Assembly (NCBI RefSeq): GCF_002224675.1
Contig: NZ_NMPZ01000011.1
Location: 1 to 64,000, forward strand
Direction: 5' to 3'
Length of the DNA: 64,000 nucleotides
Origin: Segatella copri
GTDB taxonomy: Bacteria > Bacteroidota > Bacteroidia > Bacteroidales > Bacteroidaceae
The notes beneath the pieces were generated by a model. That model had not been told where the DNA came from, made no database searches, and saw only the letters and a program-made list of their open reading frames with translations. A program made the translations under genes and the position numbers. Below, piece by piece: positions 56,437-59,291 of this stretch. Position 1 is the stretch's first letter; each line of letters opens with the position of its first letter.

Positions 56437-56469
56437 TTTGGCTATTTCACAATAAATGCGTAAATTTGC
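56437..56469 (+). promoter_or_regulatory. Promoter of the DUF1599-tpiA-folE region
   Basis: TTTG (56437-56440), 20 nt, TAAATTTGC (56461-56469). It lies inside the longer open frame from 56456, so the gene start is set at 56489. Confidence 0.75.
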
Positions 56470-56488
56470 ACCGAATTTCGAAATTATT

Positions 56489-57037
56489 ATGGCAGATTTA
56501 TTGAAAACAGAACAGCAGTTTAAAGTTGTTATGGGAGAATGTAGAACGTTATTTGAGAAGAAGCTTCACGATTATGGAGCCTCTTGGAGAATTCTGCGTC
56601 CATCTTCCTTAACCGACCAACTCTATATCAAGGCGAAGCGCATCCGCTCGCTTGAAATCAAGAAAGAATCACTCGTAGGCGAAGGCATCCGTCCGGAGTT
56701 TATCGCGCTTATTAATTATGGTATCGTAGGACTCATCCAGCTGGAAAAACCATTCGTAGATGAAGTAGATATGACACCGGAAGAGGCGATGAAGCTCTAC
56801 GACAAGCACGCCCAGGAAGCCCTGCAACTGATGCTCAAGAAGAATCACGACTACGACGAGGCCTGGCGATCGATGCGAGTGAGCAGCTATACCGACTTTA
56901 TTCTCACCAAGATACAGCGAGTAAAGGAAATCGAGGATATCGCAGGAGCCACACTCGTATCAGAAGGCATTGATGCCAACTATATGGACATCATCAACTA
57001 CGCAGTTTTCGGTGCCATCAAAATGGGAGAAAAGTAA
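56489..57037 (+). CDS. DUF1599 protein with two repeats
   Basis: A 182-residue cytosolic protein with two copies of the DUF1599 unit: KLHDYGASWRILRPSSLTDQ and IKAKRIRSLE in the first half, KNHDYDEAWRSMRVSSYTDF and TKIQRVKEIE in the second. Each repeat ends with a conserved INY(G/A)V-F/GxI stretch. Function is unknown. It precedes the DoxX-TpiA frame, a gene order that I recall as conserved in Bacteroidales. Start chosen from the promoter position. Confidence 0.88.
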   Translation: MADLLKTEQQFKVVMGECRTLFEKKLHDYGASWRILRPSSLTDQLYIKAKRIRSLEIKKESLVGEGIRPEFIALINYGIVGLIQLEKPFVDEVDMTPEEAMKLYDKHAQEALQLMLKKNHDYDEAWRSMRVSSYTDFILTKIQRVKEIEDIAGATLVSEGIDANYMDIINYAVFGAIKMGEK

Positions 57038-57094: not shown

Positions 57095-59179
57095 ATGACA
57101 GCAAAGCAGATTATAACAAAAACAGCGGTGAATATCGGGCGACTGCTCGTGGCTGTAACCTTCATCTTCTCAGGATTCGTGAAGGGAATGGATCCACTGG
57201 GCACGCAATACAAGATAACCGACTATCTGGAAGCGCTGCATATCGACTGGATGTTTCCCGACTGGAGCACCCTGGTGATGTCGGTACTGCTTGCCACTGC
57301 CGAGTTTGCCATCGGTATCTTCCTTCTCTTCGCCATCCGGCGGAGACTGACGAGCAAGATTACCCTTGCCGTGATGATCGTGATGACGCTGATTACACTC
57401 TGGATCGTCATCGCAGACCCAGTAAAGGATTGCGGATGCTTCGGTGATGCCGTAGTGCTCACCAATATGGAGACATTCATCAAGAACATCATCCTCCTGA
57501 TATTCGCCATCCTGCTCTGGAGAAAGCCGCTGGAGATGCCGAGACTCATTTCGAGACAGACACAGTGGGTGGTGATCAACTACACCTTCCTCTTCTCCAT
57601 CGTGATGAGCACCTGGAGCCTATGGTATCTGCCGCAGTTCGACTTCCGCCCTTATCACATCGGTGCCAACATAGCCAAGGGTATGGAGATTCCGAAGGGA
57701 GCCAAGCAGCCGAAGTTTGACACCACCTTCATCCTGGAGAAGAACGGCGAACGGAAGGAGTTTACGATAGACAACTATCCCGACTCTACCTGGACCTTCA
57801 TCGACAGCAAGACGGTGCAGACCGAAGAAGGCTACGTGCCTCCTATCCACGACTTCAGCATAGAAGATATGAAGACGGGCGAAGACATCACCCAGGAAGT
57901 GATTCACCGCAAGGGCTACACCTTCCTGCTCATCTCGCCACATCTCGACTTTGCCGATGACAGCAACTTCGGAAGCATCGACGAGATATACGAATATGCC
58001 ACCGACCATGGATATCCATTCCTCTGCCTCACGGCAAGTACGGAGAAAGCCATCAGGCACTGGCAAGACATCACGGGAGCGGAATACCCGTTCTACATCA
58101 CAGACGAGACGACGCTGAAGACCGTGATACGCAGCAACCCGGGACTGCTGCTGCTGAAAGACGGAACCATCATCCGGAAATGGAGCCACAACGACCTGCC
58201 TAAGATGGCAGACCTGGCAGGCAAGCCGCTGGAGAAGACCGAAATCGGCAAGATGCCGGAAGTAAGTGCCGCCAAGAAGATAGCCGGCATCATCTCCTGG
58301 TTTGTCATCCCGCTGGTACTCCTTACCATCGCCGACCGGCTTTGGGCATGGGGCGCCTGGATCAGAAAGAAAGAGAATTCAAACAGAATATTATCAACTT
58401 TTAAAAAGAAAAGAAAAATGAGAAAGAAAATTGTAGCAGGTAACTGGAAAATGAACATGAACCTGCAGGACGGTGTTGCTCTCGCTAAGGAGATCAACGA
58501 GGCATTGGTAGCTGACAAGCCAAACTGTGACGTAGTAATCTGTACTCCATTCATCCACTTGGCTTCTGTAGCTCAGGTTTTGGATTCAGAGATTGTAGGT
58601 CTCGGTGCTGAGAACTGCGCTGACAAGGCTAAGGGTGCTTTCACAGGTGAGGTTTCAGCTGAGATGGTAAAGAGCACAGGTGCTCAGTACGTTATTCTCG
58701 GTCACTCAGAGCGTCGTCAGTACTATGGCGAGACTGCAGAGATCCTGAAGGAGAAGGTAGAGTTGGCTTTGGCTAACGGTTTGAAGGTTATCTTCTGCTG
58801 CGGTGAGACTCTCGAGGAGCGTGAGGCTGAGAAGCAGAACGAGGTTGTTAAGGCTGAGTTGGAGGGTTCAGTATTCCACTTGAGCGCTGACGCTTGGAAG
58901 AACATCATCCTCGCTTACGAGCCAATCTGGGCTATCGGTACAGGTAAGACTGCTACTTCTGACCAGGCTGAGGAGATGTTGGCATACATCCGCTCAATCG
59001 TAGCAGAGAAGTATGGCAACGAGGCTGCTGAGGAGACATCTATCCTCTACGGTGGTAGCTGCAAGGCTAGCAACGCTCCTGAGCTCTTCGCTAAGCCAAA
59101 CATCGACGGTGGTTTGATCGGTGGTGCTTCTTTGAAGGCTGCTGATTTCAAGGGTATCATCGACGCTTGGAAGAAGTAA
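57095..59179 (+). CDS. Continuous frame: DoxX/MauE-like membrane protein (BT_3928-type) running into triosephosphate isomerase
   Basis: One open frame of 694 codons with two distinct parts. Residues 1-441 form a membrane protein: four N-terminal helices (about 13-150) with the DCGCFG motif of MauE/DoxX-type proteins, then helix near 165-180, a periplasmic thioredoxin-like domain (about 200-385), and a helix near 400-420. This corresponds to the BT_3928 group, a putative redox or respiratory accessory. Residues 442-694 are complete TpiA. The linker [15 protein letters not shown] looks like translated spacer. No in-frame stop separates them. Codon use shifts abruptly at the junction. It may be a true fusion or two independently translated products; a sequencing error removing a stop is also possible. 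Confidence 0.8.
58418..59179 (+). CDS. tpiA: Triosephosphate isomerase (internal start within the 57095-59179 frame)
   Basis: Interconverts dihydroxyacetone phosphate and glyceraldehyde 3-phosphate in glycolysis. Starting at the ATG at 58418, the product is 253 residues, exactly the usual length. The catalytic residues are present: Lys in GNWKMNM, His in [13 protein letters not shown], and Glu in [11 protein letters not shown]; the phosphate loop is [11 protein letters not shown] and GLIGGASL. The start follows an A-rich tract (AAGAAAAGAAAA), the kind of leader found before strongly translated Bacteroidota genes. Codons are heavily GCT/GGT/GTT biased, unlike the GCC/GGC-rich upstream half, which supports separate high-level translation. 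Confidence 0.9.
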
Positions 59180-59198
59180 TCTCACAAGGATATTTACC

Positions 59199-59233
59199 AA
59201 AGGGGATGCCTTCTTTCCTGGGGGCATCCCTTT
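59199..59233 (+). terminator. tpiA terminator
   Basis: AAAGGGGATGCC (59199-59210) pairs with GGCATCCCTTT (59223-59233), 19 nt past the stop. Confidence 0.75.
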
Positions 59234-59291
59234 CCCTATCTTTATAGGATGACAGAAGCAGATTGCTGACACATTATATATTAATAAAAGG

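Follow-up and report, generated by a model that had tools for sequence, protein, structure and literature searches.

Organization of the locus

The window, a stretch of 64,000 nucleotides of Segatella copri DNA (contig NZ_NMPZ01000011.1), contains one open reading frame of 694 aa in which a membrane protein runs without interruption into a complete triosephosphate isomerase (TpiA). The original prediction, made from the letters of the DNA, held that no stop codon lies between 57095 and 59179 and that TpiA begins at an ATG at 58418 behind an A-rich tract. Both statements are confirmed, the ATG being in frame and 441 codons downstream of the start of the frame. The features of the locus are as follows.

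56456–57037, forward strand: DUF1599 gene (Pfam), directly 5' of the fused frame and on the same strand
57095–59179, forward strand: membrane protein and TpiA in a single ORF, 694 codons plus stop
57095–58417, forward strand: BT_3928-family membrane-protein part, 441 codons (NF045576, 493.1 bits; model pLDDT 94.9)
57122–57517, forward strand: MauE/DoxX-like transmembrane domain with an invariant CGCFG at residues 113–117 (Pfam MauE; invariant columns in 91 sequences)
57641–58255, forward strand: thioredoxin-fold (ResA/CcmG-like) domain, predicted to be periplasmic (VIA-align; no CxxC on reading the translation)
58268–58369, forward strand: last transmembrane helix, predicted to return to the cytoplasm (secondary structure of the models; topology by the positive-inside rule, by eye); its start is that of the predicted helix 392–440 and its end was picked by eye
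58370–58417, forward strand: linker, overlapping the TpiA start region (low model confidence, residues 429–442)
58392–58417, forward strand: putative A/T-rich translation initiation region of TpiA, a TATCAAC-TTTTAAAA element followed by an A-tract
58418–59179, forward strand: complete TpiA, 253 aa, with an internal ATG start (Pfam; the sole match found in the genome)
59200–59233, forward strand: hairpin 3' of tpiA (fold of 59180–59250, −27.2 kcal/mol, z −2.9)

The DUF1599 gene and the fused frame possibly share one transcript, and the hairpin after tpiA is a possible transcription end. In the early tpiA codons (58418–58446 and the same region of relatives), both other frames are often closed by stops (ATGA, GGTAAC).

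The two parts of the fused frame

Assignment of the upstream part to the DoxX/MauE-type membrane proteins agrees with Pfam, which places MauE (PF07291; 60.1 bits, cut-off 27) at residues 10–141 and gives a weak match to DoxX (24.3, cut-off 23.6). The BT_3928 family model (NF045576), which NCBI types as 'equivalog_domain', is also passed (493.1 vs 250, residues 12–369). The CGCFG sequence (57431–57445) is invariant across 91 membrane-part sequences; it sits in a protein whose thioredoxin-fold domain is without CxxC. That domain (residues about 183–387) matches ResA, CcmG and SdbA with VIA-align Z scores of 10.8–11.8, and the PDB matches of the membrane part fall mainly on it, with the helices barely covered. 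Modelled on its own (pLDDT 94.9), the membrane part consists of membrane helices, the thioredoxin-fold domain and a long final helix. In the full-length model (pLDDT 85.9), a low-confidence linker (residues 429–442) is followed by an ordinary TIM barrel. The end of the last long helix is predicted to be cytoplasmic from its charge, read by eye, which would put the TpiA domain of a fused chain on the cytoplasmic side and thus in the right compartment. The only columns conserved at 90% or more that are listed for residues 370–441 are P406 and L407 (58 fused sequences).

The downstream part matches the Pfam TIM domain at residues 445–691 (PF00121; 310.3 bits vs a cut-off of 20.1) and passes TIGR00419 (197.3 vs 130.6). 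Residues N450, K452, H537 and E609, which we take to be the catalytic Asn, Lys, His and Glu of triosephosphate isomerase, are invariant in 58 sequences. The barrel is 73% identical to the solved TIM of B. thetaiotaomicron (PDB code 7rpn). TpiA has a single match in this genome. The score falls below the cut-off of the bifunctional PGK-TIM model (NF010569; 289 vs 883), with the TIM part alone aligned, and no PGK domain is found in the fused frame by Pfam.

Occurrence in relatives

Relatives were compared over 298 loci, of which two (L005 and L006) have no TpiA match. The other 296 represent 287 genomes and three named records, some present twice. The upstream gene lies beside TpiA in 295 of these 296 loci; the gene pair is nearly fixed in this Bacteroidales sample, and its junction is variable. 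The genus is represented by 152 genomes (146 of the 151 from one search and six from the family search; 5 + 1 were left out, the five being partial matches or not retrieved); 79 of these have a fused pair, 57 have separate genes and 16 have an out-of-frame overlap. Among other genera of the family, 100 of the 135 matching genomes were analysed and 32 are fused, in seven genera; the open frame thus occurs in 8 of the 22 genera sampled in the family. The 25 genomes analysed for the order, taken from the nearest matches, comprise three fused and 21 separate pairs and one genome without the upstream gene, which is not in the tree. A frame of more than 600 aa is present in 5 of the 150 matching genomes of the order sample, the window's own included. 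Of the 117 matches in the phylum sample, the window's own genome alone has the long open frame; no tpiA frame of the 116 other matches exceeds 332 aa, and no fusion outside Bacteroidales was seen there. Ten further genomes, chosen by their match to the full fused query (nine fused, one separate), stand outside the genus count; they are retained in the tree of 286 genomes, and their nine fused members belong to the set of 123 fused genomes. Over the whole set of 286, 135 pairs are separate and 28 overlap out of frame.

The separate pairs are spread almost equally over the three phases (20, 19 and 18 pairs within the genus; 26, 22 and 29 beyond it), as expected of a free spacer. Among the 28 overlapping pairs, the upstream gene ends 4 nt into tpiA in 10, 26 nt in in 11, and further in the remaining seven.

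Junction states were placed on one FastTree protein tree of the 286 genomes, built from the membrane part minus the linker together with TpiA and not externally rooted. The fused state requires at least 42 parsimony changes (shuffled labels require 93 on average), and several near pairs of genomes differ in junction state. A two-state model gives rates of 1.92 for loss and 0.27 for gain per tree unit, with a reconstruction of 54 losses and four gains, numbers that depend on the asymmetry of the model. The ancestor of the Prevotella-type clade is fused with a probability of 0.98, and the deepest root with an uncertain 0.25. For much of the Prevotella-type clade, the reconstruction thus makes separate genes the derived state, a direction that depends on the model. 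The window's genome sits in an all-fused clade of six; whatever the direction, its frame is common to its nearest relatives and is not a recent accident.

Codon usage

A sharp break in codon usage at the junction had been described for this DNA, and it is real. The reference set was eight genes from the same genome, namely EF-Tu plus a neighbouring gene and a block of ribosomal-protein genes, groups that themselves score 0.825 and 0.688. Against this set, codon adaptation is 0.316 in the membrane part and 0.846 in the TpiA part. Among mechanical ORFs of at least 300 aa, of which the window has 32, values range from 0.293 to 0.674; the TpiA part lies above all of them and the membrane part near the lowest. 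The best change point is 58424, two codons past the ATG, with a statistic of 12.3 vs a permutation maximum of 5.3 (n = 2000). The break is positive in 116 of 121 fused, 27 of 28 overlapping and 128 of 133 separate pairs (two fused and two separate rows, too short, being left aside) and is of similar size in all, so that the TpiA part of fused frames, too, retains the codon usage of strong expression.

Evolution of the linker

The linker had been likened to intergenic DNA. This holds only in part: the linker is composed like a start region, but between related fused genomes its change is coding-like, with an excess at the third codon position. Across 33 fused pairs, which were selected as open and therefore hide some frameshifts and stops, substitutions at the three codon positions number 24, 27 and 50 in −36 to −1 (p = 0.0025) and 27, 32 and 77 in −48 to −13 (p = 5e-8). 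Some frameshifting gaps do occur in these pairs: among eight gaps in −48 to −13, two are of 1 nt, one is of 2 nt and one is of 10 nt. In 23 separate pairs, the spacers have no codon-position period and many gaps of 1–2 nt. At third codon positions, the fused pairs change at 0.09 in the last 24 nt, at 0.20 in −36 to −25 and at 0.27–0.33 further upstream. This gradient suggests that, close to the ATG, a constraint on bases is superimposed on the coding frame. The last 24 nt change faster in separate pairs (0.15–0.21 changes per site vs 0.05–0.09 in fused linkers), although these pairs are also somewhat more distant; a start signal alone is thus a looser constraint and does not account for the very low rate in fused linkers.

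The frame also appears to break rarely. Spacer-like evolution would give about seven stops and about seven frameshifts per tree unit vs the 1.92 losses inferred; by this rough estimate, made with one tree, one alignment scheme and rough neutral rates, the frame breaks at about one-seventh of the frequency expected on that assumption. Calibration on four-fold sites raises the expectation to 33 stops per unit and enlarges the deficit. In the last 60 nt, frame 0 is open in 144 of 286 genomes with 51 changes on the tree vs 95 when shuffled, a count that is helped by the upstream gene, whose own coding sequence takes up some of these nucleotides. For the two remaining frames, the numbers of open genomes are 40 and 48, with 32 vs 38 and 35 vs 45 changes. 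These comparisons suggest that the fused linker is translated and constrained, and a fused chain probably exists and is maintained, although codon-like change in the linker could also come from selection on the tail of the membrane protein alone.

The open frame could well be a tolerated by-product of tight gene packing, with TpiA made from the internal start and the attached TpiA without function. Such an origin would be consistent with junction states that differ among close relatives (the tree of 286 genomes needs 42 parsimony changes), with the tolerance of out-of-frame overlaps in 28 of 286 and with the rarity of T at the end of fused linkers (8% over the final 10 nt), hence fewer stops there. 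It is harder to reconcile with the strong tree signal of frame 0, when the other two frames show little, and with the about sevenfold slower loss of the frame.

The start region of TpiA

TpiA begins with ATG in 296 of the 296 loci with a TpiA match, and M442 is invariant in 58 fused sequences. Ahead of this ATG, the 123 fused genomes carry A at −6 in 96%, at −13 in 85%, at −12 in 80% and at −3 in 74%. The mean folding energy of −30 to +18 is −1.15 kcal/mol at the TpiA ATG; for the remaining in-frame ATGs that these genomes have in the membrane part, it is −9.54 kcal/mol. Adenines at −3, −6, −12 and −13 are positive determinants of initiation in Flavobacterium johnsoniae, according to the accessible text of PMC6847099. 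For Prevotella bryantii, the corresponding text of PMC3155529 reports no functional Shine-Dalgarno interaction and start regions that fold less than internal methionine regions.

The relaxed form of TATCAAC-TTTTAAAA is found in 30 of the 88 fused genomes of the genus; because it occurs in part of the set only, TATCAAC-TTTTAAAA is a loose start-region pattern and not a strict motif. A protein-coding reason for it was rejected, as its reading register differs between genomes and as it also precedes out-of-frame or separate pairs.

One of the two readings in the original prediction, that TpiA is made mainly from the internal start and that the frame yields two products, is favoured by this comparative evidence, namely the ATG at the TpiA start of all 296 loci and the A-rich sequence with little structure that surrounds it in the 123 fused genomes. 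Internal initiation at ATG 58418 is the probable source of free TpiA, given the constant ATG, its A-rich, unstructured and slowly changing context, the codon jump and the absence of any match to a standard promoter upstream in fused genomes.

The promoter search covered promoters of the usual type, with the motif as given in the accessible text of PMC7366714. The full motif is present in 0 of the 123 fused genomes within 400 nt upstream of TpiA, and its −7 box, TAnnTTTG, is not clearly enriched in their last 100 nt (5 vs 3.0 expected). Separate pairs have an excess of this box in the same interval (13 vs 4.3 expected). Three separate-gene genomes of the genus, G199 (L143), G454 (L147) and G203 (L154), have a canonical TTTG...TAnnTTTG in the gap before tpiA, and one separate-gene genome outside the genus has a canonical promoter inside the upstream gene. 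A new promoter may accompany the splitting of the gene pair. These four genomes and the excess of the −7 box in separate pairs lend some weight to a promoter inside the membrane-protein gene, from which free TpiA would come mainly as a separate mRNA, but such a source is unlikely with the motif missing from every fused genome; as a general source of TpiA, an internal promoter of the usual type is unsupported in fused genomes.

It is very improbable that the 694-aa chain is the sole TpiA product, a true bifunctional fusion in which the ATG is a mere conserved methionine. The frame is indeed continuous and is called as one protein by an ORF finder, but the ATG is constant next to a variable linker, has an A-rich context without structure, coincides with a sharp codon break and, when aligned, also starts TpiA in relatives with separate genes. 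The other reading in the original prediction, a recent loss of a stop codon, is refuted, and an error of sequencing or assembly with it: the frame is also open in Segatella copri iA622 (L002), the nearest named relative, in G044, the nearest genome of the genus sample (92% identity over residues 3–694), and in 79 of 152 genomes of the genus and 32 of 100 from other genera of the family.

A model for two products from one frame

On these comparisons of sequence, the frame likely encodes two proteins, a fused chain of 694 aa and a separately made TpiA. Ribosomes starting at 57095 would make a low-abundance inner-membrane protein and, meeting no stop, continue into TpiA; indeed, with no stop after the membrane part, every ribosome that finishes that part must enter TpiA. 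The product of this read-on would be the 694-aa chain with its TpiA domain in the cytoplasm. Most TpiA would be made separately by ribosomes that start at ATG 58418, guided there by an A-rich, unstructured region of the type used in Bacteroidota instead of a Shine-Dalgarno sequence. TIM is normally a dimer. If both proteins accumulate, tethered TpiA could pair with free TpiA and so bring part of the enzyme to the membrane, a role for the tethered form that we infer. A fuller version of this model is possible but tentative: the frame would be an old dual-product gene whose small, anchored dose of TpiA pairs with abundant free TpiA, the fused state being kept by selection in many lineages of Bacteroidales and repeatedly split in others. 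Many lineages have separate or out-of-frame overlapping genes, so the tether is dispensable there.

Internal in-frame products and TIM fusions are known kinds. In the PGK-TIM of Thermotoga maritima (NF010569), TIM likewise lies within a longer chain and two forms occur, a monomeric PGK and a 70 kDa PGK-TIM being reported in the accessible text of PMC7729029; there, however, TIM is joined to a glycolytic enzyme, and it is this partner that is reported as a separate form, whereas here TIM is joined to a membrane protein and would itself be the separate form. Cas11d, from the 3' end of cas10d, is also a C-terminal part made alone by internal translation, and it acts beside the long form (PMC9123187, from the text accessible). 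The proteins are unrelated, and the two products established in that case are inferred in ours; the internal product here would be a housekeeping enzyme and the long form membrane-anchored. TIM is fused to another protein in the TPI-GAPDH of stramenopiles as well, which has an amino-terminal mitochondrial targeting sequence, but this is a eukaryotic, mitochondrial protein of two glycolytic enzymes, and no internal start is mentioned in the accessible text (PMC3527533). The BT_3928 protein, which corresponds to the membrane part, is joined in frame to TpiA here and is not so joined in 163 of the 286 pairs. No description of a MauE/DoxX–TpiA fusion was found in the literature searched, from which subscription papers mostly fell outside; that literature appears to hold no account of these two kinds being combined with a membrane protein, or of the patchy retention and loss of such an arrangement among Bacteroidales.

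If the model is correct, a large share of Prevotella-type gut bacteria would hold part of a central enzyme at the inner membrane and would make both forms of TpiA from one frame. Even if the tether is idle, a longest-frame call of a 'TpiA' of about 78 kDa would put the start of the main product in the wrong place, with consequences for proteomics, for the prediction of localisation and for the design of mutants. The fused, overlapping and split relatives form a natural series in which to follow internal initiation without Shine-Dalgarno sequences and the keeping or loss of a fusion.
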